A stretch of 35,647 bases of DNA from Mycoplasmatota bacterium (GTDB lineage Bacteria; Bacillota_I; Bacilli_A; Izemoplasmatales; Hujiaoplasmataceae), in contig JAEIOE010000020.1 of the NCBI GenBank assembly GCA_016342455.1, positions 1 to 35,647 on the forward strand, in the 5' to 3' direction. Of this stretch, positions 6,990 through 23,515 are shown in pieces. The notes below the pieces were generated by a model. That model was given only the letters and a program-made list of their open reading frames with translations. It searched no databases and was not told the origin of the DNA. Each line of letters opens with the position of its first letter. Within the stretch, counting starts at the first letter, position 1. Made by a program: the position numbers and the translations under genes.

Positions 6990-9900
6990 TTATTCTGTAA
7001 TATAATCTCCTAAGATTGCTTCAAAGTATACATCTCTAACTTCAGTTAACATTGCCATTAAAGCAGTATTATCTAAATTACCATATGATACTGGTAAGAA
7101 TTCTCCGTCAACAATTCTATCAGCGATATTTATGTTAATTGTTCCTAAAACATAAGTACTTGATAATAAGTTATCGAAGTATATTAGTAAAGCTGAGTTA
7201 ACACTAGTAGGTATATTAGGAATTTCAATATCGTATCTACTTTCAATATCAGCATCAGTTAAATCATAAACCATTGCATAATATTTGTATAGTGCATAAA
7301 GTTGCAATTGCTCTAATGATGGAGCTTCTTCATCGTTTTCAGAACCTACTGTGTATTCAGGGTTAGCAGAATCTGCTTCTGTGAAATCGGCAGTTGGTTG
7401 TTCGAAATCGTCACCTTGTTCAACTTTGATTAAGTGAAGTCCAAACTCTGTTGTTATTAAAGAAGAGTATAGAGAATCTTTATCTAAGTTTTGAGGTAAT
7501 TGGTATGTATCATACAAATCAATTAAAGCATCTACGAATTCTGTTACAAATGTATCTTTTACTCCGTATGTACCGCTGTATGTCAATGAATGAGAAACAC
7601 CATCGTCATCAGTTCCATTTAAACTTTCAGTCATAATTAAGAATCCGTTTTGTTTGAATGCTCCCCAAGTTTCGTCTTCTCTAGAAGCGTTATTAAATTC
7701 AACAACTAATTCTGCGAATGTTCCATCAAACTCATCAATAGCGATTTCAAGTTGACCTAGTAACGCGTTAAACGCTGTTGTTTCATCAACTGTTAAAGAT
7801 GCTTGATAAGCATCAAAGTCATCAGGACTTCCATCTTCATCAAAATCAAGATGGATTAATACTTGGTTTACATCTAAACTGAAGTAGTTATCATAGTAAT
7901 CTAGAACTTCAGGATATAAAGCTTCAACTACATCATATAATTCAGTAGTTTCTTGGATTAAATGTGGTTGTAATTCGCTAGTTACAAAGTATTGTAATAA
8001 AGCCATTTCTGATTTTACACCATATCTTGCATAAGCATATTCTATGTATGAAGAATAACCGAATGTAGAACCCATACTTGCATATAATGATTCATAGTAA
8101 ACATATTCGCTCTTAGAATTATCGATAGCAGTATACATATCGTCCATTCTAGCAGATTTGTTTTTCATTAGGTTTGTTTGTTCTCCGAAGATTTCTTCGA
8201 AGTAAACAGAGTATAATAATTCTTTGTCTTGTGCAGCATATAATGTGTACAATGCAGCGTTTCTAGTTAATGCGTATGTAAATAGTTGGTCTGCAGTAAC
8301 TTCGTATGCTTCATCAGATGTTAATGTTTTTTCAAATGAGCAAATTAATTCATTGTCACCTTTTTCATTTAGTACATAACCAGTATCTAGAGATTGATAA
8401 TCTATCCCTAAGTAATGATCATAGATAACAAATCCTAAATCAGATCTTGTTTCCAATAACGTTGTTTCAACATTGCTGTCTCCACTAGTACCATAAACAT
8501 AATCATCTAATAATCTATTATATAGAAAATCATAGACCGTATCATTGTTTAAAACAGTTTTTAAAGAAACTTCAGTCCATTCAACTTCGGTAACTTCTTC
8601 TGTATCACCTTGAGCTAAAACAGTTACTGTTCTTGTATAGCTTTTTGTAGCGCCTAACACACTGATTGTAAATGTTAATTCCACTTCAGTATCTACTTCA
8701 GGATTTACAACAACGCCAGCACTTGATATCACATCTGAATCAGATGATGACCAAGCAATAGTTCCGCTGTAATAAGTAGTTTTAGGTAACGTAATAGTAG
8801 CCCCTATTGTAGAAGGAATTACTACAGTTGGTTCAAGATATTCAAAGATAGGTGTTGTAACATCAATCTTAGTATTATCATCTAATTTATAAGTCATATA
8901 ATAATAACCAGCAGTTCCAGTTGATAACAATGTCGGAGTATTGCTGTATCGATCATCGTCTTCACCGATTGCTAATTGATTAAACATATAATCAGAAAGT
9001 GATCCATTGATTTCTGTTAAATCATCATAATTGAAATGAATGAAATCATCGTCTAAAGCAATTAAATCTTCGACAGTAGCATCTTCAGCTAATACAGGTC
9101 TGTATAAACCATATACATAGTTATACATTTGAATATATTTTGCTAAAACTTCTTCATCAGTTAATTCAGTTGAATTGTTTGATGATACGATTACTACATC
9201 TTCAATTGCAGTATAAACTTTATTAACTACTAAATCAGTAGTATGAGTAACGTCATTATTTAATTCGTCCCAGATATGTCCATCTGAATCGATTGTAAAT
9301 TTCACTTCTAAAGCGTCATTCACAACATTAATTGTTTCGTCCATGTCATAAGCATCTGTTCTAGTTACAGTGTAATAAACAGTATTAGCTTCTTCATAAA
9401 CTTCAGCAGCTGCTAAGTCAGCGAAAATTTTGTCAGACTCAAGAACAACTTCTAGTAATCCATCTACTAAGTCAGCATTTTCATCTATTCTGTATTCTAA
9501 ATCAGAACTATCAGTATAAATTCCATTTACTCCCAAAGTATAAACGATATCATCGTCCATGTTTAAAATATTTTCTTCTTCATCGAAGTAGTAGATATCG
9601 ACTGGTAAGTAGGCTTCAATAATTTCATCGTCTTCATCTAACAATGTTTCGTTTGCAAACACATAACCGTTATAAAGTCTTAATTCAATTCCAGCTAAAG
9701 AAATTAAATTGAATTTTTCCATAACGAATTCTGCATCAGCTTTACTTGTAAAACGAATGTTAACCGCAGAGATATCATCAAAGTATGAATAAAGGTATTC
9801 AGTAATTACGCTTTTTTCAGTAACTACACCATTTTCATCAGCATTATCAAGAACGAATGCTTCTCTGGCGATGAGTAATTTTGCGTATTCTTCTTCAACT

Positions 9901-10322
9901 CCCGTAAAACCAGCTAAAGACATAGTTTGAGCGAATGCTTGACTATAACTGTCTCTTTGTTCATCTGTTAAATCAGCAATATCATCTGTATCGCTAGTTC
10001 CATAAGTTAATTCTAAGATCTTATCAGCAACTTCATCATCAGTTACATTTGAAATGTAATCAGCTAAGATAAATGAATCTGTTAAGAATAATAATTGGTC
10101 TATTCCATCATTCCCTTTGATTTGTTCGAACAATTCTTCGTTAGTAATTGAATACAAAACGTTGCCCTCTTCATCAAGTCTTTGGTAGAATATTTCATCC
10201 GGATTAGATAAGCCTGGATAGTTAATATTTCCTGTAGTGAAAGCAACCACAATTGCTGCAATAGCAACAAAAGCAACTATCGATACAATTACAAGAACTT
10301 TCTTTGTAAATATGCTTTTCAT
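6990..10322 (-). CDS. Large membrane-anchored PrsA/parvulin-like foldase with Ig-like insertion
   Basis: The 1110-residue protein has a Lys-rich N-terminus and one membrane helix (about 8-30) with no lipobox Cys, so it should face outward as a type II anchored protein. The region after the helix, with helices and TNEELFEQIKG, resembles the N-terminal chaperone part of SurA/PrsA proteins. An atypical bacterial Ig-like domain lies at about 495-567 (IAWSSSDSDVISSAGVVVNP). A degenerate parvulin domain lies at about 815-965: it begins VNQVLIHLDFD, has the DETWGAFKQNGFL segment and ends TTEFGLHLIKV, matching the parvulin pattern tTeFGyHiIkV. It is about four times longer than PrsA. The start at 10322 follows AAGGAG; an in-frame GTG at 10331 overlaps that site. 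A role in folding secreted proteins is inferred. Confidence 0.7.
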   Translation of the reverse strand: MKSIFTKKVLVIVSIVAFVAIAAIVVAFTTGNINYPGLSNPDEIFYQRLDEEGNVLYSITNEELFEQIKGNDGIDQLLFLTDSFILADYISNVTDDEVADKILELTYGTSDTDDIADLTDEQRDSYSQAFAQTMSLAGFTGVEEEYAKLLIAREAFVLDNADENGVVTEKSVITEYLYSYFDDISAVNIRFTSKADAEFVMEKFNLISLAGIELRLYNGYVFANETLLDEDDEIIEAYLPVDIYYFDEEENILNMDDDIVYTLGVNGIYTDSSDLEYRIDENADLVDGLLEVVLESDKIFADLAAAEVYEEANTVYYTVTRTDAYDMDETINVVNDALEVKFTIDSDGHIWDELNNDVTHTTDLVVNKVYTAIEDVVIVSSNNSTELTDEEVLAKYIQMYNYVYGLYRPVLAEDATVEDLIALDDDFIHFNYDDLTEINGSLSDYMFNQLAIGEDDDRYSNTPTLLSTGTAGYYYMTYKLDDNTKIDVTTPIFEYLEPTVVIPSTIGATITLPKTTYYSGTIAWSSSDSDVISSAGVVVNPEVDTEVELTFTISVLGATKSYTRTVTVLAQGDTEEVTEVEWTEVSLKTVLNNDTVYDFLYNRLLDDYVYGTSGDSNVETTLLETRSDLGFVIYDHYLGIDYQSLDTGYVLNEKGDNELICSFEKTLTSDEAYEVTADQLFTYALTRNAALYTLYAAQDKELLYSVYFEEIFGEQTNLMKNKSARMDDMYTAIDNSKSEYVYYESLYASMGSTFGYSSYIEYAYARYGVKSEMALLQYFVTSELQPHLIQETTELYDVVEALYPEVLDYYDNYFSLDVNQVLIHLDFDEDGSPDDFDAYQASLTVDETTAFNALLGQLEIAIDEFDGTFAELVVEFNNASREDETWGAFKQNGFLIMTESLNGTDDDGVSHSLTYSGTYGVKDTFVTEFVDALIDLYDTYQLPQNLDKDSLYSSLITTEFGLHLIKVEQGDDFEQPTADFTEADSANPEYTVGSENDEEAPSLEQLQLYALYKYYAMVYDLTDADIESRYDIEIPNIPTSVNSALLIYFDNLLSSTYVLGTININIADRIVDGEFLPVSYGNLDNTALMAMLTEVRDVYFEAILGDYITE

Positions 10323-10355
10323 ATATAACACTCCTTACTAATTTTCGCAATATCT

Positions 10356-10497: not shown

Positions 10498-10526
10498 TTG
10501 ACTTTTTTTGTAGATAATTATATAAT
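10498..10526 (+). promoter_or_regulatory. Sigma-A promoter of the c-di-GMP matrix operon
   Basis: TTGACT (10498-10503) and TATAAT (10521-10526) are separated by exactly 17 bp. The predicted start at about 10532 coincides with the 5' edge of the riboswitch. The region between the foldase promoter and this element (10385-10497) is very AT-rich and shows no other clear feature. Confidence 0.8.
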
Positions 10527-10527
10527 G

Positions 10528-10633
10528 ATGATAGTTAATAGCAAAACTAGTGAAAACTAGTGACGCAAAGCTATAGGGCCTTCGTAAGATGGTAGCCAGT
10601 TGCCGTTGTCTTTAAGGACGAGGGCGTTTTTTT
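10528..10633 (+). ncRNA. Cyclic-di-GMP-I (GEMM-I) riboswitch with overlapping terminator
   Basis: The sequence has the GEMM-I core. A GCAAA joint is followed by stem P2 with a GAAA tetraloop (ACTAGT-GAAA-ACTAGT, 10546-10561), the hallmark GACGCAAAGC (10562-10570), a P3 stem, then GGTAGCCAGTTGCCG (10591-10605). P1 can form between about 10528-10544 and TTGCCGTTGTCT (10600-10611). The same 3' strand also forms the left arm of a terminator: GCCGTTGTCT (10602-10611), loop TTAA, GGACGAGGGC (10616-10625), then G and seven T. P1 and terminator exclude each other, so ligand binding should prevent termination (an ON switch). Aptamer identity follows the known consensus; switching direction is inferred from base pairing. 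Confidence 0.9.
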
Positions 10634-10651
10634 ATTCTAAAGGGTGAAAAA

Positions 10652-10717
10652 ATGTTCAAGTTCAGTGATAATGGCATTTTTTATGCAATAATTTCGAGAA
10701 AGGAGAAACGACTATGA
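10652..10717 (+). CDS. Possible 21-aa leader peptide coupled to the next gene
   Basis: ATG at 10652 has AGGGTG five bases upstream. The frame encodes MFKFSDNGIFYAIISRKEKRL (21 residues by count) and its TGA overlaps the next ATG as ATGA (10714-10717). It lies between the riboswitch terminator and the first large gene. A coupled leader ORF is plausible, but so short a frame could be chance. No family is recognisable. Confidence 0.35.
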   Translation: MFKFSDNGIFYAIISRKEKRL

Positions 10718-11862
10718 GTGTAAACACAATGCGTAGAAAAGTGACGTATTCTCTCGTTTTACTCATTTTTTCGCTTGCTCTTTTTGTGTTTTCTTCTTAC
10801 GCTTATTTTACAAATATGTATGAAGATGCCTTTATGGGTGAAATGGGAATTGTTGATGTAAGTTTGGAAGCCTATTTTGAAACAGTGACACAATCAAGCA
10901 ATCTAGCATCAGCTAGTGATGTGACCTTTGATACACATACAATTACATCAGTTGTAATAGATTTATCTGTTTATACGGATGGGTCAACGATAAGAATTGA
11001 TAATTCTAATAGTAATGAAGGGTATTTAACAGTATCAGGTACTCCTACGGCTAATTCTTTGGTTGTTTTGGAAGACTTAACTTATGAAGCTCCGGGACAG
11101 ACTATAACTATTGATCAAGTTGTTTTAGAAAATATTCCTGCTAATGAAGTTGTAATTTCATCATCAAACAAGTACACTGCAACTGATTTAGGATTTGTTG
11201 CTTCAACACATACCATAACTTCATCTACAACGAATTTATCTGTATACGCTGATGGAGATACCATTAGAATTTTTAACTCAAATAGCAATGATAGGCATTA
11301 TACCGTATCTGGAACACCTACCTCAACAGCTTTAGTGGTAGTAGAGGATTTAACAAATGAAACGGCGGGAACTTCAATTTCAATTGATAAAGTTGTTACA
11401 AAACCTGGTGTATATCATATAAATATTGTTTCTTCCGGTAACGAGAGTTATTTTGAAGATTTTAGATTGATAGTATATGTTTACAGCAGTTTAGGAACTT
11501 ATTTAAGAGTAAAAATGCATGAACAATTAACACTTACATATACTGATTATCAAGGAGATATTACTGAGTTATCAATTCTTTTTGATGGTTATATGCCTTT
11601 TAAATATAATACAACGAACTGGTATGATAATCGTATTAATGATAATTATTTGTATTATAAATCACCAGTGGAACGAATCGATGAATTTACACCAACAGAA
11701 TTACCGTTGATATCCGAATATTTTTCAACTCAAGATTACGCAACAAGTCCTCCGGGATATTCTCTTCAAATTGCCTTTTCAATAGAAGCCGTGCAGTTTA
11801 TTGGGGGACCGGAAGAAGTTTGGGACTTAACTACTAAGCCTTGGGATGGATTAACGTGGTAG
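10714..11862 (+). CDS. TasA/camelysin-like secreted protein with two inserted beta modules
   Basis: The 382-residue product has a SipW/TasA-type signal region (about 10-34, ending SSYAYFTN), a GIVDVSL strand just after it, and a C-terminal IEAVQF...VWDL segment like the TasA/camelysin family (A-x-Q...aW). Members form extracellular fibres or are surface proteins processed by a SipW-type signal peptidase. No SipW gene is in the window. Two related modules of about 68 residues (70-137 and 159-228) interrupt the expected fold. Without them the mature N-terminal strand would lead straight into PGVYHINIVSSG. AAGGAG lies upstream of the ATG, which overlaps a 21-codon leader ORF. It is the first large gene of the riboswitch operon, 12 bases before the giant gene. 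The family call is from pattern only and is moderately sure. Confidence 0.65.
   Translation: MSVNTMRRKVTYSLVLLIFSLALFVFSSYAYFTNMYEDAFMGEMGIVDVSLEAYFETVTQSSNLASASDVTFDTHTITSVVIDLSVYTDGSTIRIDNSNSNEGYLTVSGTPTANSLVVLEDLTYEAPGQTITIDQVVLENIPANEVVISSSNKYTATDLGFVASTHTITSSTTNLSVYADGDTIRIFNSNSNDRHYTVSGTPTSTALVVVEDLTNETAGTSISIDKVVTKPGVYHINIVSSGNESYFEDFRLIVYVYSSLGTYLRVKMHEQLTLTYTDYQGDITELSILFDGYMPFKYNTTNWYDNRINDNYLYYKSPVERIDEFTPTELPLISEYFSTQDYATSPPGYSLQIAFSIEAVQFIGGPEEVWDLTTKPWDGLTW
10921..11124 (+). repeat. Beta module copy A
   Basis: It encodes residues 70-137 of the TasA-like protein. Shared pattern with copies B and C: HTIT, then LSVY, G-T-IRI, NSNSN, TVSGTPT, VVLEDLT, E-G-TI-ID. Similarity is clear in protein but low in DNA, so the duplication is old. 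Confidence 0.75.
11188..11397 (+). repeat. Beta module copy B
   Basis: It encodes residues 159-228 of the TasA-like protein. It contains THTITS, GDTIRI, SNSND, YTVSGTPT, EDLTNETAGTSISID. It is followed by KPGV, as is copy C. Confidence 0.75.
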
Positions 11863-11874
11863 GAGGAAAGTACT

Positions 11875-14800
11875 ATGTCTATTATTAGAAGAAGAACTAG
11901 AAAAAATAAAATAAAGCACATAATTGTGCTGTTTTTAGTCTTTGTCTTTTCTCTTACAACATCTATATTTTTCTTAGAAGCAAATCCTGTCATTAACGCA
12001 CAGGGACAAATTGATACAGTCGATATTCTAAAATTTGACGGAGTTTTTGATTGGGAAGAAACGTTAGATGTACAAACATCAAGTACAGATTATATGACAT
12101 ATAGTGTTTTTAGAGATACTTACTGTAAATGGGATGATAACACTTATAGCCCTTCTGCATGTGCATCAGCTGCTAATGGTAAAAAAATTAGATTTGATAC
12201 CGCAGAAGAATTATTTAGATTTTCAAAAGACGTTTCATTTGATGAAATATATTTAACAGGAACACCTTCTGAAAACTATAAATTATCTGATGCTAAAATT
12301 GCAGTATTGTTATCTCTAAATTATGTTTTAGGAAATAACATAGATTATTCAGTTATGGCATCAAAAGCTTTTATTCCTATTGGTTATGCTTTTAGTGATA
12401 TTGCATTAAATGTTTATGAAAGATCTTTTACAGGTACTTTTGATGGCCAAGGTTTTGTCATTTCAAATTTATATTTAGCTGGCTATGATTACTTAGTTTA
12501 CGTGGATACATCTGAACCAACAACCCCTATTGATATTGCAATGTCGGAACATTATTCTATGTTTAATTACAACGAAGGTTCTATTAGAAATTTAGGGCTT
12601 GTAAATCCAAACTTAGAAATTCTAGAATTAAATACAGATATTACTAAATTATCGAATTTAGTTGGTTTTAATATGACCAATATTTATACACAGAGTGATA
12701 TATCATTTACAAGTTCAACAAAAACAATAGCTTCAACATTAATTGATTTATCAATGTTTGAAGCAGGAGATTTGGTTCAAATAGATGGTTCTACTAGCAA
12801 TGATGGTATTTACACCGTAACAGGAACACCTACAGCAAATTCAATTACAGTTTTAGAATCCTTAACAGATGAATCAGCCGGAACTAGCATCGATTTAGCA
12901 AAACCAGGTGTTGTTGAAAATGTTTATGTTCAAGATACAAGAACTTCTGTTACTAGTGCTGGGATGAGATATTCCGTAGGTACTGCTTCAGAGGACTTCC
13001 AAGCGGCTGGTATTTTACATACCAACCAAGGAATTTTTAGATCTGCTTATTATATGTCAAAAGTAGTAATGAATGGTTACTATATTAATAAGTTTAGTGT
13101 TCAACCGGTTATTTATACGAATAACGGAACAGTTAGTAATTTGGTTTATGACTCAGAAGTTTATCTTCTATACGTAACAGTAAACTCACAAACTTTCACG
13201 ATTGATACACCAAATGGGATAGCTACAGGTGAAACAACAGCTACCCTTAAATCACATAGTTCATCACTAAATGCTTTAACTCATGAAGAAAATGGTCAAA
13301 CGAAACATATATGGTATTTTTATAATACGGATGGTTATCCATTATTAAATGGTTTTGAATATGATGCGGTGAATGAAGTGTATTGGATTGACGATGAAAT
13401 TGATTTTGCTTTCTTCGCTAAAGTGATTCAATTCTTAACAGTTAATTATGATACAAATGGTCTAAAATACTCAGCTTCAAAATTTTTACTTAAGAATAAC
13501 ATAGACATGTTGGTGCTAGCCCCTGAGGCTTATGAAATACCTTCTTCTACATTTGCAGGTGAACTATCAGGATTAAATCCTGCGGCAGGAGACTTAAGTG
13601 AAAATCATTATATTTACAATTTGACCATTTCGGATGGAATTGTTAAAGGAGAAGAAATTTATGCTGGTTTATTCAGTACTTTAGGTGCGGGGTCAGTAGT
13701 AAGTGATTTGAATTTTTCACAATCTACAGTTAGCTTTAATGATACTGAAGATCATTATTCTAAAGATTTCTTCATTGGTGCGCTTGCCGGTAAAATGACA
13801 GGTGGTACTATTGAAAATGTCTTAATAGACGTTGATGTTTCTTTGGGAACACAGGCACTTGGGAAAACCTATGCAGGAACCGTTGTTGGAAAAGCTTCTG
13901 GTCATATTAAAAACTTATCAAATTACGGTAGCTTATCTGGAAACAATCACGTTTATATTTCTCCTTACAACATTGAACCTACATTTTATATGGGAGGTAT
14001 TGTTGGAGCTGCAGAAACTTCTCAATTAATTCTTGAAGAAGTTATTAATAATGGGGATATAAACGGTTTACAAACAGCTTCAGTCTTTACCTTAGAACCA
14101 GGCTCAACAGAAGCTTCCATATTTATTGGAGGAATTATTGGGTATTTAAATAATACCTTAGGTTCTGAACATCAGTTAATTGATGTTGCTAATAAAGCAG
14201 ATATATATATTAAGAGTTTCTTGAGCTCAGTATCTCTTCCATCTTATCAATATGTTGGTGGAGTATTTGGACGTCTTGATGGCGTTGCTCCAATATTAGA
14301 AGAAGATTCAAGTTATCAATTTGCGAATTTATATAATAGTGGAATAATTTATCATACCTACTCCTCTACAGGAGCTGATATTACATCAGCTGGTATTGGA
14401 GTCAATAACGCAAGTGAAGCAATTGAGTATGCTTTACTCTTTAACCATGCGGCTTATGATTTTACTGAGGGAGCAGCGGATCATACACAAACTCAATTTA
14501 AATACGCGGCGTTAATTTATGATATTTCAAGTAGTGATGTAACAATATCAAGAGCTTATAATTATGCGGATTTTAGTTTTGATAAAAACATTTACGACGA
14601 AATCGGACTATTATATTCTTCAAAAAATGATAATACGACCTTGCTAAGGTTTGTAGCTAATTATGGAGATATTAACTATATGAACAATTCAGGGATTACT
14701 CAAATTACTTTAGCGTCGGATTTAAATATTGGAGGTATTACTTTAGAATCAAGTGTTAATTATGCAAATGTGTATAATTATGGAGAAATAAATGTAGTAA

Positions 14801-17800
14801 ATTTAAATATAGGAACATACAGCTTACATGTTGCTGGTTTTGCAACGGACTTAGCAACGGATCACTATATTAAAAGATCGTTAAGTGATAGTGATATAAC
14901 AGTAGCTGAAATTACTGGATCAGGCAATATTTATATTGGCGGAATTGTTAACATTAATTACGCTGGTGATTTACAAGATGCAGGCCAATCGACAACACAA
15001 CCGGTAGCTACAGAAGGTATCATTGATACCATGAATTCAGGTACAATATCAACATCTTACGGAGTTGTAGGAGATGGGTTATATGGGATTCTTTCAACAA
15101 GTAATACCTTTATTGGTGGTGTTGCAACACTTAATAAGGGGTCTATACAAGATGCTGGTAATTTAGGTGATATATCTGCGGCAAACTTGAACTCATCAAG
15201 CGCATTTACTTATGAAACAGATTCTTCTTATGCGGGTCTAGTAAAAACATATAATTCAGGAATAGTTGCAGGAGGTATTTCTGCAATGGTTATTGGTGGG
15301 ACATCTAGAATTTATGACTCAGCGAATAATGGTAATGTTCTTGTTACAGCTTATAAATATGTGAGAGCAGGAGGAATTCTTGGAGTATCACTTTATAGAG
15401 AGTCAAGTGTAGGTGGAATTACTTCAGGAATGGGCTTATCTAATGATATTCAAAATTCAATTTTATCAAATGGTGTAAATCTTGGTAATATATCGGCTAT
15501 CTCAAATACAATAGGAAGCTATAGCACATCTTCTACAACAACAGGTAGTTATTATATGTCTATTAGTGAAAATTCACCTTACATATCAAGTTTAACAATA
15601 CCAAAAGTAACTACAACAGTTGGGTCTGGACAAAGACCAGAAATTTATTCTTCAGCTGGTGGAGTTATTGGGTATGGATTAAGTTATATGCAACGAATGT
15701 TAAACCACGGTACTATTTCAGCGACTGACGTTGCTGGTGGTGTTGTAGGTGCTACTTATGTTTTAGGAGACAGTACAACAACCGTTAATATAACAACAGC
15801 GATTAATTATGGAACGATAGCGGCTATAGATAACTCAGATGTAGCGGCGGGTATAGATAAATTTGAAATGTCGTATTCTAACATTTCAAGTAATTATATG
15901 AGTGAGTCAGAATTTAATGACTTTGTTTTCCCATCTGGCTATTCTAGAGAATACCCTGAGGGAAAAAGAGGATTCGGTGGAATTTTTGGTAGACTTCAAA
16001 GAGGAACAAATGGAGTCATGACTAACTCTGGAGGAGCTTTTGACTTTATTGTTAATGCTAATGAAGACGTAGACTTAATTGGTCGTCTTGATCAAGTTTC
16101 TAACTTTTCTATTTCAGGTCGTTATTTTAGATTCAGTGGAGCGATTTATTACTCAGCTAAATACGATGATACAACTCAAAATGTATTCACAGGATTTAGG
16201 ATGGGTTACTACAACTCAGGTACGGTAACTAGTTATAATACTGTTACTGATATTGTTTATGCGGATTATAACGGCTATATTATGTATCAAGTCGGAATTA
16301 CAAACAACTATTTGTATGAATCGCCTACTGTTTATGAGGGATATTATTATGATACAACTCCGGCTTCTGTGGGGAGTACGGGAAATGCTGGGTATATAGG
16401 TGGTATTCCTGTGCCTTGGATTACAGAAGATCCTAACGATGTTAGAATAACTGATAGCGATACGGAGTACATGTATGATCCAGATTTCGCAATGAGAACA
16501 GATTCAGATTTAACAGAATATATTTATTTTATGACAAATGACTTACTAGCTACTAGATTTACCTCTACAAGACCTAATGGTATGTATGTTTTATCAACAA
16601 CAGCTGGTCAATCATTTGGATTGGTTTTACCAAGAAATATTGATATAGATTATATGAGACCTATTGATGAAGACTATTCAGGCTTTATCTCTTTGTTGAT
16701 GGATTATGATGTGGTATCTCCGCTTATTAAAGAAAACTTCTCAACAGAAATCGAGACTGGTTTTGATAATTTAAAACAAACAAACTTTAATGATAAAGCT
16801 GAAGTAGTTGCTTCAGAAACCACTAATGTTATTTTAACTGAAAGTGGCGGTAGTTCAAACGTACTTAATAATCCAGATGTAGATTATGTAAATATGGAAT
16901 TAACCTATACAATCAGTATTGAAGCCTTCAATCCAGCACAAACAACAGCTTCCTTTGCTGTTACAAGCGCCTTGACTTCGTCAGGATCGCTAATTGCGAG
17001 AAGAGCTTATGATCAATATAGTGGAGTCCCTACTAATTCTCAATTAGAAGCATATAGACTTTTACTTTATCCAGAAAGAGCACTAGGGATATCTACGAGT
17101 TATGCTGCTGATTTGGATATAACCTTGCCTAGTCAATCAATAACCTCTAATACAAGTCCTCAATCCGTTGGATTTTTCTCTGTCTATTCTGAGGCATTTT
17201 TAGGAGATGATTTATATGCAAAAACCGCATATTATAATGATTATGAAGTATTCATCATTTTTACACCCGGTTCTGCATATTTAACTGGTACAACTGAAAT
17301 TGAAGATGTTGCTTTTAATGGTGGTTCTCAAGTAACAGTAACTGACCCAACCGACCTGAGATTATTAGGAAATGTGAACAGTTTAGGTAGTATTACCTTG
17401 TATTTTGAAGATAACAAAGGTATTTTAGCCCAAGACTATGATTTTAAGAGCAATTTTGTGATATATTATAGTGGAACAGTTTTGAGCAGTAGTTATTATA
17501 CTGTGAGTTCTAATCCAGTAGATATTAGTGGTGGAATTGGCTATTATAATATAACATTTACATTTACGAACACTTCAAAAGCTGGGGATTACTATTTTGA
17601 ATATAGTTACTTCCCGACTTCAACCACATTTACGACTTATTTTGATAAGGCAGCTTCAACAGGGTCAAGTATTACTTCATTTAATTATTATTCCAATCAA
17701 TCTTCGGTTTCCATTGTTAGTAGTACTATTACCTCTTATGTAAATGTAGGCTATCCACTTGAAGATTATATGGATACTTCAACAACGAACTTTACAGAAA

Positions 17801-19422
17801 CGATTAATGGTTCATTACCAAATTATCAATCAAATTATACCTATAATATTGACTTCATGACATCAGGCACTTTAGTCATAAGTGAATTCGCATCAGTAAT
17901 AAGTGCTAAATTAGTTTCAGTGTCGATTACAAATGGATATAAAACATATCAAATGGAATATATTGTTGAGGCAGAAAATGGGTCTCAAACAATTTATACT
18001 CATAATTTGATTGAGAGATCTGTGGATTTAGTTTCAGTTTTAAAAAATGGAAACAACGTTTTACTTTCAAACATCCACACATCAAGAGAAGCTGAATCAA
18101 CTGAATTTACAGTAGATTTAGGCTTTGATCAAACATTAAATCTTACAGAGAATTTATACGAAATAGACCCTGGTGCGTATTCATATTTGGATATAGATGT
18201 AACAGGAACTACGAATGATGGTTTAACAACTTATACACCGGTGGAAATCATAGGGATGACCTATGATGCCACTGATTACTTATATATTTATTTTAGTTAT
18301 GAAACCTTACCAGGAATTTATACCTTTAGTTTCACCTATTATCGAGATGGTTCATTAACAGATTTTATAACCTTTGCATCTGATTTAGTTATCGTTAAAG
18401 ATTTAGGAACGGATGCTTATTTATCTGATTTAAAGTTTTCAGACATTGCGACAGAAACCACTTATCCGGATATTTATGTAGCAAACTCGGATGGAACACA
18501 TAAATCATCTGCTTATAATCCACTAATTTATTTTGGTGGTATAGATTATGATGAAGCAGATGAATTTGGAGAAAGTTATTTTCATGTAGATGGTAAAGTA
18601 AATAATGTCCCACTGGATTATTATTTACCATATATGCTTGATTACTTGCCTTATGGGGCAACGATATCCAGACATGCTTACGATTGGAATACATCATCTT
18701 GGTATTGGACAGATGAAGCAGATTCTAATTCAACAGGAACTGAAATTGATCAGTTATATACAAACTTTACTTTATATCCTGATACTGGTACAGAGCCAAA
18801 TGAAGGTGATTTTGTTAAAATTGAATATAGAGTAACAGCCGAAGATGGCTTAACAAATGTTTATTACTTTGTTTCTGTTACGGATATTACGTTTAACTTA
18901 ACTGTTATATTTGACATATATTATTGTACTGGTGCTGACGAAGGAACATGTTCATTGGCTAAAGACTCCGTAGATTTCAATAATGAGTTAGTTATTATAA
19001 CAGTGAAGAACTTAGATACTAATGGAGACGCTGACACACTAAGTAGTGATGATCCAGATGATTTCCCAAGTTTCACAACTGTAAATGCTTTGAATAATAG
19101 AATGACACAATTCTTCTATACATCATTAGCAGATTACGAATATAAATTCGGTAGAAATATGTCAGGCTTTTATGCTTTTGATGTTGAATTACAATTAGAT
19201 CAATACTTAAATGATTTATATACTTATGAAATTAAGTTTGGCGAGTTTTATCTAGCTGACTTTGATGTTGGGTTAGGATTAAATGGTAAATATTATTATA
19301 TTGGACCATCGGTAACGATGAGGACGAGACGTTTTAATGTTTATATTAGAGAAGTAGCGATACCAGAAACAGATGCTCCATTTGGATTATTTGATTTCTT
19401 TAAATCATGGTTCTATGAATAA
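11875..19422 (+). CDS. Giant secreted beta-rich surface protein with GLUG-like repeats
   Basis: The 2515-residue protein starts after AGGAGG with a basic N-terminus and a signal helix (about 14-36). A first GLUG-like unit is GTFDGQGFVISNLYLAG (187-203), followed by MFNYNEGSIRNLGLV. A shared beta module lies at 275-343. From about 570 to 1450 many irregular units follow the pattern GGI-G...I..a.N.G.I (for example GALAGKMTGGTIENV, YMGGIVGA, VGGVFGRLDG, AGGVIGYG, GFGGIFGRLQRG), suggesting a long beta-helix or solenoid. The last ~1000 residues are beta-sandwich-like and rich in Tyr, Thr, Asp and Ser. There is no LPXTG and no clear C-terminal membrane helix; the end is FGLFDFFKSWFYE. It is probably a matrix or adhesion protein controlled by c-di-GMP. 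The exact function is unknown. Confidence 0.8.
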   Translation: MSIIRRRTRKNKIKHIIVLFLVFVFSLTTSIFFLEANPVINAQGQIDTVDILKFDGVFDWEETLDVQTSSTDYMTYSVFRDTYCKWDDNTYSPSACASAANGKKIRFDTAEELFRFSKDVSFDEIYLTGTPSENYKLSDAKIAVLLSLNYVLGNNIDYSVMASKAFIPIGYAFSDIALNVYERSFTGTFDGQGFVISNLYLAGYDYLVYVDTSEPTTPIDIAMSEHYSMFNYNEGSIRNLGLVNPNLEILELNTDITKLSNLVGFNMTNIYTQSDISFTSSTKTIASTLIDLSMFEAGDLVQIDGSTSNDGIYTVTGTPTANSITVLESLTDESAGTSIDLAKPGVVENVYVQDTRTSVTSAGMRYSVGTASEDFQAAGILHTNQGIFRSAYYMSKVVMNGYYINKFSVQPVIYTNNGTVSNLVYDSEVYLLYVTVNSQTFTIDTPNGIATGETTATLKSHSSSLNALTHEENGQTKHIWYFYNTDGYPLLNGFEYDAVNEVYWIDDEIDFAFFAKVIQFLTVNYDTNGLKYSASKFLLKNNIDMLVLAPEAYEIPSSTFAGELSGLNPAAGDLSENHYIYNLTISDGIVKGEEIYAGLFSTLGAGSVVSDLNFSQSTVSFNDTEDHYSKDFFIGALAGKMTGGTIENVLIDVDVSLGTQALGKTYAGTVVGKASGHIKNLSNYGSLSGNNHVYISPYNIEPTFYMGGIVGAAETSQLILEEVINNGDINGLQTASVFTLEPGSTEASIFIGGIIGYLNNTLGSEHQLIDVANKADIYIKSFLSSVSLPSYQYVGGVFGRLDGVAPILEEDSSYQFANLYNSGIIYHTYSSTGADITSAGIGVNNASEAIEYALLFNHAAYDFTEGAADHTQTQFKYAALIYDISSSDVTISRAYNYADFSFDKNIYDEIGLLYSSKNDNTTLLRFVANYGDINYMNNSGITQITLASDLNIGGITLESSVNYANVYNYGEINVVNLNIGTYSLHVAGFATDLATDHYIKRSLSDSDITVAEITGSGNIYIGGIVNINYAGDLQDAGQSTTQPVATEGIIDTMNSGTISTSYGVVGDGLYGILSTSNTFIGGVATLNKGSIQDAGNLGDISAANLNSSSAFTYETDSSYAGLVKTYNSGIVAGGISAMVIGGTSRIYDSANNGNVLVTAYKYVRAGGILGVSLYRESSVGGITSGMGLSNDIQNSILSNGVNLGNISAISNTIGSYSTSSTTTGSYYMSISENSPYISSLTIPKVTTTVGSGQRPEIYSSAGGVIGYGLSYMQRMLNHGTISATDVAGGVVGATYVLGDSTTTVNITTAINYGTIAAIDNSDVAAGIDKFEMSYSNISSNYMSESEFNDFVFPSGYSREYPEGKRGFGGIFGRLQRGTNGVMTNSGGAFDFIVNANEDVDLIGRLDQVSNFSISGRYFRFSGAIYYSAKYDDTTQNVFTGFRMGYYNSGTVTSYNTVTDIVYADYNGYIMYQVGITNNYLYESPTVYEGYYYDTTPASVGSTGNAGYIGGIPVPWITEDPNDVRITDSDTEYMYDPDFAMRTDSDLTEYIYFMTNDLLATRFTSTRPNGMYVLSTTAGQSFGLVLPRNIDIDYMRPIDEDYSGFISLLMDYDVVSPLIKENFSTEIETGFDNLKQTNFNDKAEVVASETTNVILTESGGSSNVLNNPDVDYVNMELTYTISIEAFNPAQTTASFAVTSALTSSGSLIARRAYDQYSGVPTNSQLEAYRLLLYPERALGISTSYAADLDITLPSQSITSNTSPQSVGFFSVYSEAFLGDDLYAKTAYYNDYEVFIIFTPGSAYLTGTTEIEDVAFNGGSQVTVTDPTDLRLLGNVNSLGSITLYFEDNKGILAQDYDFKSNFVIYYSGTVLSSSYYTVSSNPVDISGGIGYYNITFTFTNTSKAGDYYFEYSYFPTSTTFTTYFDKAASTGSSITSFNYYSNQSSVSIVSSTITSYVNVGYPLEDYMDTSTTNFTETINGSLPNYQSNYTYNIDFMTSGTLVISEFASVISAKLVSVSITNGYKTYQMEYIVEAENGSQTIYTHNLIERSVDLVSVLKNGNNVLLSNIHTSREAESTEFTVDLGFDQTLNLTENLYEIDPGAYSYLDIDVTGTTNDGLTTYTPVEIIGMTYDATDYLYIYFSYETLPGIYTFSFTYYRDGSLTDFITFASDLVIVKDLGTDAYLSDLKFSDIATETTYPDIYVANSDGTHKSSAYNPLIYFGGIDYDEADEFGESYFHVDGKVNNVPLDYYLPYMLDYLPYGATISRHAYDWNTSSWYWTDEADSNSTGTEIDQLYTNFTLYPDTGTEPNEGDFVKIEYRVTAEDGLTNVYYFVSVTDITFNLTVIFDIYYCTGADEGTCSLAKDSVDFNNELVIITVKNLDTNGDADTLSSDDPDDFPSFTTVNALNNRMTQFFYTSLADYEYKFGRNMSGFYAFDVELQLDQYLNDLYTYEIKFGEFYLADFDVGLGLNGKYYYIGPSVTMRTRRFNVYIREVAIPETDAPFGLFDFFKSWFYE
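12697..12903 (+). repeat. Beta module copy C
   Basis: It encodes residues 275-343 of the giant protein. Pattern: TKTIAS, IDLSMFEAGD, VQIDGSTSNDGIYTVTGTPT, ITVLESLTDESAGTSID, then KPGV. It sits between a GLUG-like unit and the resumed sequence VVENVYVQDTR. Confidence 0.75.
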
Positions 19423-19435
19423 TACGAGGTGAGTT

Positions 19436-21994
19436 ATGGCGAAGAATAAAGAAAAAAATAATTTAAAGAGAAACAGTCTGACAAACAAAATTGTAAGTTT
19501 GACCGTTTTTCTTGATGCTTTGTTTTTGGTCCTAATACTCTCCTTATCTATTTTATTGTATATGGTTAACCAAAACCAAACGAGAGATACCAATGCGTCT
19601 TATCAAAACGAGATACTGGTAGCTGCTTTTGAAGATGTGTTTGATAAAGTTGAAACTGATGTTCACAATTTAGCAACTGATTCTGATATCATTGCTTACA
19701 TTAACTATGTCAACACAGGGGCAGATGCAATATTAGCTCCAGGAGATGCAAATTATAACTTATATTCTAGTTACTTAGTGCAATCTGCAGCAGTAGTTGA
19801 TTATCAATCTGAAGAATTATACGGCTTAGTATATATTGCTTCAGGCTCTAATTGCTCAACAGGAACAGATGGCTGCGCTATTTCACATGAAGGAGTATTA
19901 TCAGGTGATGACTGGAAATTATCAGAAAGAGCTTGGTATTTGGAATTGTTAGGTATAACAAAAATATTAACAAACCCATATGAAGATGCTTTATCTGGTG
20001 ATTATACAATTACTTATGTTGAAAGAGTATTCGATGGAACAGATATGATAGGTTATGTTGGAATTGATATCTATTTAGATACTTTAGCAGAAGTATTTCA
20101 TTCTATAACACTAGAAAAACTTCCTGAAAACAACGAAGTAATCATTTTTACTGACCTTGAAGAAAATCCTAGATTAATCTATTTTTCCGGAGAAACCTAT
20201 TCAGATTACTTTATGCAAAGTTCACTAAATTATGCTCAAATAGATAATCTAAATGATTATGGTGACAGAGGAATTTCATATATTTTAGAAAACTTTGATA
20301 CGAACAATCAACTTAAAGGAAATTTCTTAGAAGGGGAAAATTATGTTATACTTTCCTCAGAAGTTGAAAATACAAATATAAGTGTTGTGACAATGTTTTA
20401 TGTTAATCAATTAATCGAAATAGAAGTAATGTTTATTATTTTGGTAGCGATAGCTGCCATTATGGTATTTATTATTGCTATTATTACAACCAAACAAGTG
20501 AGAAAAGCACTGAGCCCAATTGATACGATTTTAGAATCAATTGAAAAAATTAAAAATGGAAATTACGATGTTAATGTAGATATTAAAGGCGCCTTAGAAC
20601 TGAGACATATTGGCGATGCCATAAATATCATGTCAAAAGAGATAAATAAGCAAGTTAAAATTACATACGAAAGTTTAGCATATGATGTCTTAACTGGACT
20701 TAAAAATAGAGCATCTTCTGCAGCAGAAGTAGATGCAACAATCTTTAAGTTAGATAATAGATCAGCTGTTTGTTTGATTCAAGTTGACAACTTAAAAAAT
20801 ATTAATGTTACAAAAGCTCAAATGATGGGTGATAACTTGATTAAAGCAATTGCTGATGAATTGAAACATGTATTTAGAAGTGATGAAACATTATTCTCTA
20901 ATGGTGGGAATGAATTTGTTTATATTAAAGAAGATATTAAATCATTGGAAGATGTTGAATATTCATTAAATAGATTATTAATGCACTTTAAAGAACCAAT
21001 AGTGTTAAAAAATGTAAGAGCTGAAATTAAGTTTAACGTTGGGGTTTCAATTTATCCAACAGATGGACAAACTTTAGATGAATTAATTAAAAAATGTGAT
21101 ACTGCCTTATTCAAAGCAGCGGAAGCTAGTTATAAAAAAATCATTTTTTATAATGAAAAAATCGCTAGATCAGTGAATTATCAATCAGAAATATCTGAAC
21201 AACTTGCTCAAGCGATTAAGAACGAACAAATCTATTTAAAATATCAGCCTTTGATTACAAATTCTAATGAAATATATGGATTTGAAGCTTTAGCAAGATG
21301 GACATCTCCAACACTTGGTGAAATTGGTCCTCAAATATTTATTGCTAATGCCGAAGAATCATATCTAATTATCCCAATTGGAACTTGGATTTTAAGAAAA
21401 GCTTGTTTTACTCAAGTAGAATTGAAAGAAAAATATGGTATAAATTATATTATGAGTGTCAATGTGTCTCCGGTTCAGATACTTCAAAGAGATTTCGTAG
21501 ATATTGTGAAGAAGATAATTAGAGAAACAGATATCAACCCTGAATTCTTGACTTTAGAGATTACCGAGTCATTATTCTTAGAAGCCACTGTTTTATTGGA
21601 AGATACCATTGAACAATTACACAAATTAGGTATTAAATTATCATTAGATGATTTTGGTACTGGTTATGCATCATTGACTTACTTAAGACAAATCAACTTT
21701 GACAATCTAAAAATAGATAAAACCTTCGTTGATGGAATCTTTGCAAATATTAAAGATCATAGAATTATTGGTACCATCGTTTCCTTAGTTCATAACCTAG
21801 ATATGAAAGTGATTGCCGAAGGTGTTGAAACAAGGAAACAATATGAATATTTAAAAGAAATATCTACAGATGTTTTCCAAGGTTATATTTTCTCAAAGCC
21901 ATTGGCTATTGATGATTTGAATAAATATATTACTAAATTTAATTCAATTCCACTTCACAAACGTCAAGATATATTCAAGGCTTTAAAGGAATAG
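19436..21994 (+). CDS. dCache-HAMP-GGDEF-EAL protein, probable c-di-GMP phosphodiesterase
   Basis: The 852-residue protein has a membrane helix at about 18-44, an extracellular dCache-like sensor (about 48-325), a second helix (330-352), a HAMP-like segment (353-405), a GGDEF domain (about 410-575) and an EAL domain (about 585-835). The cyclase signature is GGNEF (490-494), with Asn in place of the essential Asp/Glu, and the inhibitory site reads RSDE rather than RxxD, so cyclase activity is unlikely. EAL catalytic residues all appear present: Glu617 (EAL), Asn676, Glu708, Asp738-Asp739 in DDFGTGYASL, Lys759, Glu795 and Gln815. It should hydrolyse c-di-GMP in response to an external ligand. 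GAGGTGA precedes the start, 13 bases after the giant gene. Activity is inferred from residues only. Confidence 0.9.
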   Translation: MAKNKEKNNLKRNSLTNKIVSLTVFLDALFLVLILSLSILLYMVNQNQTRDTNASYQNEILVAAFEDVFDKVETDVHNLATDSDIIAYINYVNTGADAILAPGDANYNLYSSYLVQSAAVVDYQSEELYGLVYIASGSNCSTGTDGCAISHEGVLSGDDWKLSERAWYLELLGITKILTNPYEDALSGDYTITYVERVFDGTDMIGYVGIDIYLDTLAEVFHSITLEKLPENNEVIIFTDLEENPRLIYFSGETYSDYFMQSSLNYAQIDNLNDYGDRGISYILENFDTNNQLKGNFLEGENYVILSSEVENTNISVVTMFYVNQLIEIEVMFIILVAIAAIMVFIIAIITTKQVRKALSPIDTILESIEKIKNGNYDVNVDIKGALELRHIGDAINIMSKEINKQVKITYESLAYDVLTGLKNRASSAAEVDATIFKLDNRSAVCLIQVDNLKNINVTKAQMMGDNLIKAIADELKHVFRSDETLFSNGGNEFVYIKEDIKSLEDVEYSLNRLLMHFKEPIVLKNVRAEIKFNVGVSIYPTDGQTLDELIKKCDTALFKAAEASYKKIIFYNEKIARSVNYQSEISEQLAQAIKNEQIYLKYQPLITNSNEIYGFEALARWTSPTLGEIGPQIFIANAEESYLIIPIGTWILRKACFTQVELKEKYGINYIMSVNVSPVQILQRDFVDIVKKIIRETDINPEFLTLEITESLFLEATVLLEDTIEQLHKLGIKLSLDDFGTGYASLTYLRQINFDNLKIDKTFVDGIFANIKDHRIIGTIVSLVHNLDMKVIAEGVETRKQYEYLKEISTDVFQGYIFSKPLAIDDLNKYITKFNSIPLHKRQDIFKALKE

Positions 21995-22003
21995 GGGGCT
22001 AGT

Positions 22004-23515
22004 ATGAATCTAATTAAATTATTCGCTGCTGCAAATGCTGCTGAAGCATTTGAACTTGTAACTGCGGCTGTCTTGGTTATCATTACTATTGTTGCTCTAT
22101 TTTTCTTATATCGAAATTTATCTAAAGAAATCTCTGAATACAGAAGAAATCGCGATGCGATGAGAAAACGCGATGAAGATTCTGAAAATTCAGATTCTGA
22201 GGAAGATGAGTTAGACTTAGACAGCAAAGAATTCAAAGATATGCATTTATTCAATCAAATAAATGCTTCGATTGAAAGATCACCAGAGGGAAGTTTATCT
22301 GCGCTTTATAGTATTGACCTGGATGATTTTAAAAATGTATGTGAAGACAAATCTGAAAAAGATATCGCTAAAATCAAAAACGAACTTACAAAGAGACTTA
22401 AAAAATTCGGTGGAAAGCACTCTATTTCTGGTCTTTTAGATGATGATTCATTCTTGTTCTATTATTTTGGACAAATAGATGCAGAAAGCTTAAGCGAAAT
22501 GGGTGAAGGATTATTAAAAATAATCCGTGAACCAATTAAAACCGGAAATGTTAATTTGACAGCTTCTGTTGGTGTTTGTATTTTTCCATATGATGGAATT
22601 AATGCAGAACGTTTATTTAAAAACGCTCAAATAGCCGTTTATGTAGCTAAAAAAACTGGTAAAAACCAATTACATATGTACTCTGAAGATTTAATAGACT
22701 CTGAACAGTATAATACAAAATATTATCAAGAAATTAAAAAATCAATATCTAAAGATGAGTTCTTGTTATACTATCAAACGATAGTAGATGTAAAAACAGG
22801 TAAAATTATAGGTTTAGAATCTCTTTTGAGATGGAATCACCCTGACAAAGGAATATTACCTCCTTCTAAATTCATCAATGTGATGGAATTAACAGGTGAT
22901 ATTACTTGGTTTGGTACATGGGGATTTGAAAAAACAGTTAAGCAATATAAAGACTGGGTTACTAAAACAAGGATTGGTGATTTATTTATTTCAACCAATT
23001 TAAGTCCGAAACAATTAGAAGTTGAAAACCTAGCAAAACAATTTTTTGATATTACGAAAAAGTTTGGCTTAAGTCCGGAAATGTTTTGTTTAGAAATAAA
23101 CGACTATTATGCTATGGAAAGTTCGAAGAAAGCAGTTCAAAACCTAGTTAATTTCCGTAAATATGGCTTTAGAATCTCTATCGATGATTTAGGGCCTAAT
23201 TTCGAGATAGTAGCTGATATGGGAAGAATACCTGCCGGTATCGTGAAGATTAGCAGAAACAACGTTTTACACATTATGGATGACGGTGCAAACACCGGAT
23301 TCATGAAAAGAGTTATTAAAGAAGCTAAAGACAAGTCAAAAATAATTGTAGCTGAAGGGCTAGAAAATGAAGAAATGATTAAAAAGATTTATGACTTAGG
23401 AATAAGATTTATGCAAGGATACTATTTCAATCAACCTAAATCGGTTATTGAAATTGAAAAGATGATTATGAAATCACCTTGGAATATGAGTAGTTTCCAA
23501 AACATTATTGAATAA
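22004..23515 (+). CDS. Degenerate GGDEF-EAL membrane protein, possible c-di-GMP receptor
   Basis: The 503-residue protein has one N-terminal membrane helix (about 15-36), a charged linker with an acidic run (57-75), a degenerate GGDEF domain (about 80-230) and an EAL-like domain (about 240-500). The cyclase signature is replaced by LLDDDSF (144-150). In the EAL domain the motif is ESL (Glu272), and Asn332, Glu364, Asp394-Asp395, Lys415, Glu451 and Gln471 are kept. The loop-6 signature DDFGTG is changed to DDLGPN, and this loop matters for metal coordination and dimer activation. It may be a weak phosphodiesterase or a binding-only receptor. It is the last gene of the riboswitch operon, nine bases after the previous one. 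Confidence 0.85.
   Translation: MNLIKLFAAANAAEAFELVTAAVLVIITIVALFFLYRNLSKEISEYRRNRDAMRKRDEDSENSDSEEDELDLDSKEFKDMHLFNQINASIERSPEGSLSALYSIDLDDFKNVCEDKSEKDIAKIKNELTKRLKKFGGKHSISGLLDDDSFLFYYFGQIDAESLSEMGEGLLKIIREPIKTGNVNLTASVGVCIFPYDGINAERLFKNAQIAVYVAKKTGKNQLHMYSEDLIDSEQYNTKYYQEIKKSISKDEFLLYYQTIVDVKTGKIIGLESLLRWNHPDKGILPPSKFINVMELTGDITWFGTWGFEKTVKQYKDWVTKTRIGDLFISTNLSPKQLEVENLAKQFFDITKKFGLSPEMFCLEINDYYAMESSKKAVQNLVNFRKYGFRISIDDLGPNFEIVADMGRIPAGIVKISRNNVLHIMDDGANTGFMKRVIKEAKDKSKIIVAEGLENEEMIKKIYDLGIRFMQGYYFNQPKSVIEIEKMIMKSPWNMSSFQNIIE

Follow-up and report, generated by a model that had tools for sequence, protein, structure and literature searches.

The window, by which we mean the whole 35,647-nucleotide stretch of DNA analysed here, comes from an uncultured bacterium related to Izemoplasma and carries a predicted c-di-GMP riboswitch that probably turns on an operon for matrix or surface proteins together with a c-di-GMP phosphodiesterase. 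Such an arrangement would give delayed negative feedback, open to a signal from outside. It is notable because riboswitches of this kind have been described as rarely controlling c-di-GMP metabolism (PMC6366702). In the literature searched, no paper dealt with Izemoplasma and c-di-GMP together. If the circuit works as read, biofilm commitment here would be under a simple RNA-based homeostat with an external gate, which is testable with three parts only. The features of the locus are the following.

10498-10526, plus strand: sigma-70-type promoter, TTGACT-N17-TATAAT, with 11 of 12 consensus letters
10530-10607, plus strand: GEMM-I (c-di-GMP-I) aptamer of the A20 subtype, from RF01051 with the register of the Rfam alignment
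10602-10632, plus strand: intrinsic terminator, from the leader fold, sister aptamers and a covarying pair
10714-11862, plus strand: P1, secreted or surface protein of 382 aa, from translation, 16 aligned orthologs and Pfam
11875-19422, plus strand: P2, giant secreted protein of 2515 aa, from translation
19436-21994, plus strand: P3, 852 aa, TM-dCache-TM-HAMP-GGDEF(GGNEF)-EAL, from Pfam, residues and a domain model
22004-23515, plus strand: P4, 503 aa, TM-degenerate GGDEF-EAL, from Pfam and residues
23532-23555, plus strand: terminator-like hairpin at the operon end, which also fits the opposite strand

The four genes behind the leader are separated by just 12, 13 and 9 nt, the unit is about 13 kb long and a hairpin closes it. 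An earlier note on this DNA had described an operon ending in two GGDEF-EAL genes, and this layout agrees with it. The aptamer is the sole Rfam gathering match within the window (64.6 bits, E 1.3e-10, against a gathering score of 35), so that the GEMM-I assignment and coordinates of that note stand. Its register is also fixed by the numbering of Bc1 and Bc2 (PMC11218506, PMC4933901), where G11, A38 and C81 of Bc1 are G20, A47 and C92 of Vc2 (PMC11218506). In Vc2 numbering, A20 lies at 10540, A47 at 10567 and C92 at 10603. The ligand contacts A47 and C92 are present, but position 20, which is position 11 of the Rfam model, holds an A where a G is expected as ligand contact. The promoter, a strong one, ends at 10526 and transcription is expected to start near 10533, therefore the RNA begins at or just inside the aptamer. 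TTGACA-TATAAT is found at the same distance from the aptamer in the nine sister loci printed.

When the flanks of the aptamer are folded no stable P1 helix is predicted. Pairing between the 5′ and 3′ flanks is poor and the 5′ side shows no conservation among sister aptamers, for which reasons we rejected the proposal that helix P1 is shared with the terminator. The supposed P1 strand is better named the aptamer 3′ strand carrying C92, and in this form the overlap that had been claimed does hold. The co-folding of P1 against the terminator, which had been suggested as a check, gives the same mixed outcome: the terminator folds and takes C92, while P1 is not stable.

The terminator reads GCCGUUGUC-UUUAAG-GACGAGGGC-GUUUUUUU (10602-10632), and in the leader fold it forms the hairpin GCC.GUUGUC/GACGAG.GGC followed by U7. 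Its 5′ arm holds G10602-C10603-C10604 and overlaps the aptamer 3′ strand, with C10603 (that is, C92) paired to G10624. The terminator is kept in 53 of the 55 A20-type sister aptamers of the family, and one of the two that lack it runs off its contig. Furthermore, one stem pair covaries, being G-C in 19 sequences and A-U in 37 with 0 mismatched sequences, which is strong evidence that the terminator is under selection. The capacity to fold, the covariation and the conservation are direct observations; the direction of switching follows by argument. As C92 is both the ligand-pairing base and part of the terminator arm, the terminator and the liganded aptamer are mutually exclusive, and an ON switch is predicted, as the earlier note had it. 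Without ligand, the nascent RNA would form the terminator by capturing G91-C92-C93 of the aptamer, and transcription would stop. With ligand, most likely c-di-GMP, C92 would pair with the ligand, the terminator could not close and the operon would be read. In the cGAMP-responsive ON switch of pilM the equivalent C75 is sequestered in a terminator (PMC9262584). The c-di-GMP riboswitches of Clostridioides difficile also precede surface and adhesion genes (PMC6366702, PMC6200980), but those of class I are OFF switches, unlike the one predicted here.

The A at position 20 means that the ligand is not certain, as A20 is the determinant of cGAMP selectivity in the Geobacter GEMM-Ib riboswitches, where an A20G change in Gmet_0970 swaps cGAMP for c-di-GMP (PMC6456294). 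These RNAs, e.g. that of pilM, resemble ours in having A20, ON logic and a terminator that takes the ligand-pairing C (PMC9262584, PMC6456294). The A20 aptamers could likewise sense 3′,3′-cGAMP, in which case cGAMP would induce the surface proteins and a c-di-GMP phosphodiesterase, a cross-talk by which one messenger lowers the other. We regard this as unlikely, although it comes first among the alternatives. The distribution of the letter at position 20 speaks for it. Among 114 aptamers from 34 genomes there are 59 A, 52 G and 3 C, and A20 is concentrated in the family of the window (55 A to 16 G, against 4 to 36 elsewhere). The window's own genome (G000) has five GEMM-I aptamers, of which three are A20 and two keep G20, and four relatives have A20 and G20 in tandem. 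G000 also has two genes for DncV-like proteins (L175 and L176, on contigs C77 and C35).

Several observations stand against the cGAMP reading. The Bc2 RNA of Bacillus thuringiensis, which has an A (A11) at the equivalent position, stands upstream of a surface-adhesin gene and is a proven ON switch in which c-di-GMP relieves termination; c-di-AMP, GTP and cGMP do not relieve it, and the text makes no mention of cGAMP (PMC4933901). Bc2, before cap, is thus similar to the present leader in its A at the G-alpha-contacting position, its terminator and its surface-protein target; it differs in controlling one adhesin gene, with no phosphodiesterase described in that transcript. In Geobacter, cGAMP is made by Hypr GGDEF cyclases and the targets are pili and cytochromes. 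A Ser or Thr of the Hypr type at the GHxxG[D] position occurs in none of the intact GGDEF matches of G000 or of G021, a complete single-contig genome in which all aptamers are A20. The DncV-like genes are absent from the other 40 of the 41 genomes searched, and one of the pair adjoins a ThiF-like gene, as in CBASS; they are probably a CBASS defence. Finally, in a tree of first genes, G20-led surface-protein operons (G014, G363 and G141) nest within the A20 operons of their genus. The response of Bc2, with its A, to c-di-GMP and the lack of a Hypr-type cyclase among the matches lead us to favour c-di-GMP as the most likely ligand of the A20 aptamers.

That said, the two types of aptamer might serve two messengers side by side, with A20 for cGAMP and G20 for c-di-GMP, and cGAMP supplied by an unrecognised cyclase. 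Such a two-messenger circuit, in a lineage with no known Hypr cyclase, is improbable. The source of the cGAMP might be, for example, a GGDEF-HD-GYP protein whose selectivity position holds Asn. One intact GGDEF domain with this Asn is found in each of G000 and G021 (L020, G000:C37:13342-14313, and L167, G021:C1:1730109), with the motif GxxxGN and an HD-GYP domain sharing its open frame, and it is possible that this protein is an unusual cyclase.

Related operons offer a natural set of A20, C20 and G20 aptamers, which would reveal the role of position 20 outside Geobacter. In four genomes the same surface-protein/SipW-type operon follows an A20-then-G20 tandem, with 65-97 nt between the two aptamers (L069, G003:C87:3543-3792; L072, G004:C215:10890-11107; L085, G010:C15:6101-6340; L097, G013:C6:74018-74237), each aptamer being followed by a terminator-like sequence. 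C20 is seen in three otherwise normal GEMM-I aptamers (at L081, G007:C46:14850-14924, and L102, G017:C10:77844-78133), two of which belong to a tandem array of three in G017. Where a G20 aptamer precedes a small secreted protein (L005, 1501-1605; also L067, L069 and L072), there is no terminator that takes C92 and the start codon follows after about 30-40 nt, which hints at a different mode of control.

We return to c-di-GMP as the favoured ligand, and to the proteins that would act on it. The motifs of P3 are GGNEF, FEALARW and DDFGTGYASL. Its cyclase signature is degenerate, the catalytic Asp having been lost, and no P3 ortholog of the family has an intact GG[DE]EF: most have Asn or Ser for the catalytic Asp, and those of G009 and G017 have GHEEF and GHDEF, which keep [DE]EF and lose GG. 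The EAL residues E617, N676, E708, D738, D739, K759, E795 and Q815 are invariant in 10 of 10 orthologs, loop 6 (DDFGTGY) is intact in P3 and its orthologs, and the modelled EAL domain lies about 2 Å from PdeA, MorA, MucR and BifA, although the whole-chain model is poor (pTM 0.41). A disabled cyclase beside an intact EAL site had been proposed for P3 and these residues bear that out; on them, P3 is a predicted c-di-GMP phosphodiesterase. The dCache domain, which had also been proposed, is confirmed by dCache_1 matches in 8 of 10 orthologs (best E 2.6e-09), while the P3 of the window itself gives a weak PDC match. The domain sits between two TM helices, and the activity of the enzyme would depend on its ligand. 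P4 keeps the metal ligands of an EAL domain, but its loop 6 reads DDLGPNF, against DDFG[TA]GYSS, and is degraded in 12 of 12 family orthologs. As loop 6 has been described as essential for activity (PMC12943098), P4 may be inactive, or a weak or regulated enzyme, or a receptor. Close homologs of P4 come from Candidatus Izemoplasmatales, Acholeplasmataceae and Bacilli/Bacillota metagenome assemblies.

These features raise a second alternative, that P3 and P4 control the secreted surface proteins locally, as c-di-GMP receptors or trigger proteins, rather than setting the level of the messenger as enzymes. The model here would be LapD (PMC3032553), one of the fold matches; in the Lap system, too, a HAMP-GGDEF-EAL protein of the membrane goes together with a giant surface protein. 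In favour of this, both GGDEF sites of our pair are degenerate and so is loop 6 of P4. LapD, however, is a degenerate receptor, whereas in P3 and its orthologs loop 6 and every catalytic residue of the EAL domain are intact. In two genomes (G001 and G009), moreover, the aptamer precedes the pair with no giant protein directly downstream. We hold a receptor role to be unlikely, second among the alternatives, and continue with P3 as a phosphodiesterase.

From the gene order we infer a negative-feedback circuit. High c-di-GMP would lead to secreted surface proteins and, last, to P3, a predicted membrane phosphodiesterase of the GGDEF-EAL type that an extracytoplasmic dCache domain would gate, that is, to part of the cell's capacity to degrade c-di-GMP. 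P4 would add a weak or regulated phosphodiesterase, or a partner or receptor. The result would be negative feedback with a delay, which a signal from outside would tune. A cotranscribed phosphodiesterase is not proof of feedback, and genes 9-11 kb from the promoter may be expressed at a low level. Nor is this enzyme the sole c-di-GMP sink, since HD-GYP proteins, which are further candidates for c-di-GMP degradation, are more numerous (9 in G000 and 7 in G021). GGDEF matches number 25 in G000 and 22 in G021. Clear EAL domains are few, with 4 in G000, 4 in G021, 3 in G017 and 4 in G006, two of which lie in this operon in each genome. Through a deeply conserved, family-wide and predicted ON switch, the messenger itself would control half of the clear EAL domains of G000 along with surface proteins. 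G000 also has a broken-looking GGDEF-EAL gene (L011, G000:C100:22690-23900), with a GGDEF domain, an in-frame TAA and then a separate EAL frame, which would leave even fewer intact EAL genes.

A search for the same order of riboswitch and genes in relatives had been suggested, and it finds the order of aptamer, surface protein, giant protein and GGDEF-EAL in G000 and 11 other genomes of the family (G000, G004, G006, G010, G011, G013, G015, G017, G020, G021, G022 and G141 (A20)); the G004 contig breaks off within P3. Directly behind the aptamer of G001 and G009 come P3 and P4 alone. Of the 34 family genomes 31 have a P4 ortholog, among them all 11 of good quality. Other families, too, combine a GEMM-I switch with matrix-type secretion and an EAL gene. 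In f2 (G027 and G029), related proteins end a surface-protein/SipW-type operon behind a G20 aptamer, and in f9, of the same class (G304, G213 and G324), an A20 aptamer leads to a surface-protein/SipW-type operon and an EAL gene with loop 6 intact. The GGDEF-EAL genes do come last in a 13-kb unit, and orthologs of the neighbouring A20 operon have no EAL gene in the stretch read, but given the family-wide conservation, the two genomes with the pair alone, the recurrence in f2 and f9 with other EAL genes and a chance of about 0.0004-0.001 per genome that two of 3-4 EAL genes fall behind an aptamer (a rough figure that assumes random gene placement), it is very improbable that the aptamer sets surface-protein expression only and that these genes are passengers without regulatory meaning. 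The circuit proposed in the earlier note therefore keeps its ON logic and its coupling to a phosphodiesterase, which the family-wide conservation supports, including the two genomes with the pair alone; its "TasA-like" label finds no confirmation, the ligand is probably c-di-GMP and P4 may be inactive. In a further family, f3, a G20 aptamer precedes another conserved gene set (L122, L129, L136, L141 and L149, in G026, G028, G030, G032 and G036), for proteins of about 343, 337, 348, 480 (divergent EAL-like) and usually 882 aa.

The label "TasA-like" for P1 has a basis in its N-terminus only. P1 has a SipW-type-looking N-terminus and two DUF3244-like repeats, with DUF3244 as its only Pfam match. 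The TasA/camelysin profile PF12389 does not match it, and 1 of 17 orthologs gives a match (E 0.039). A fold search with a model of pLDDT 75 returned no PDB match below E 0.001, so that Pfam, NCBIfam, PDB sequence and fold searches alike leave the TasA identity unsupported. The 16 aligned orthologs (225-521 aa) share the SipW-type-looking N-terminus and a conserved C-terminal region, GYSLQ...EAVQ..GP..W. P2 has no match in Pfam or NCBIfam; its orthologs, of about 2100-2900 aa, lie downstream of the aptamer in relatives. A matrix role for these proteins is a reasonable inference. Like the tapA-sipW-tasA matrix operon of Bacillus subtilis, the locus encodes secreted proteins with a SipW-type-looking signal region, and SipW-type signal peptidases are encoded in the sister A20 operon, on contig C84, and among the genes of a surface-protein cluster on C21. 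It differs from that operon in that P1 fits neither the TasA/camelysin profile nor any solved fold.

Some smaller observations concern the secreted proteins and their surroundings. The DUF3244-like repeat is about 65 aa long and occurs twice in P1 (10912-11121 and 11200-11394), once in P2 (12697-12894) and nowhere else in the genome; the P1 orthologs of two genomes from the same genus have one copy each, and those aligned from other genera have none. Genes for a SipW-type peptidase, an AAA protein and a DUF2357 protein come in this order in the sister A20 operon (L007, 10622-14608), and the trio is kept in many relatives and in other families. Divergent from the riboswitch operon, the window encodes a large secreted protein on the minus strand (6990-10331) with a PpiC-like C-terminal motif, recognised by eye, and a second large secreted protein with such a motif, again by eye, lies near the sister A20 operon (L007, 1454-4060, minus strand).
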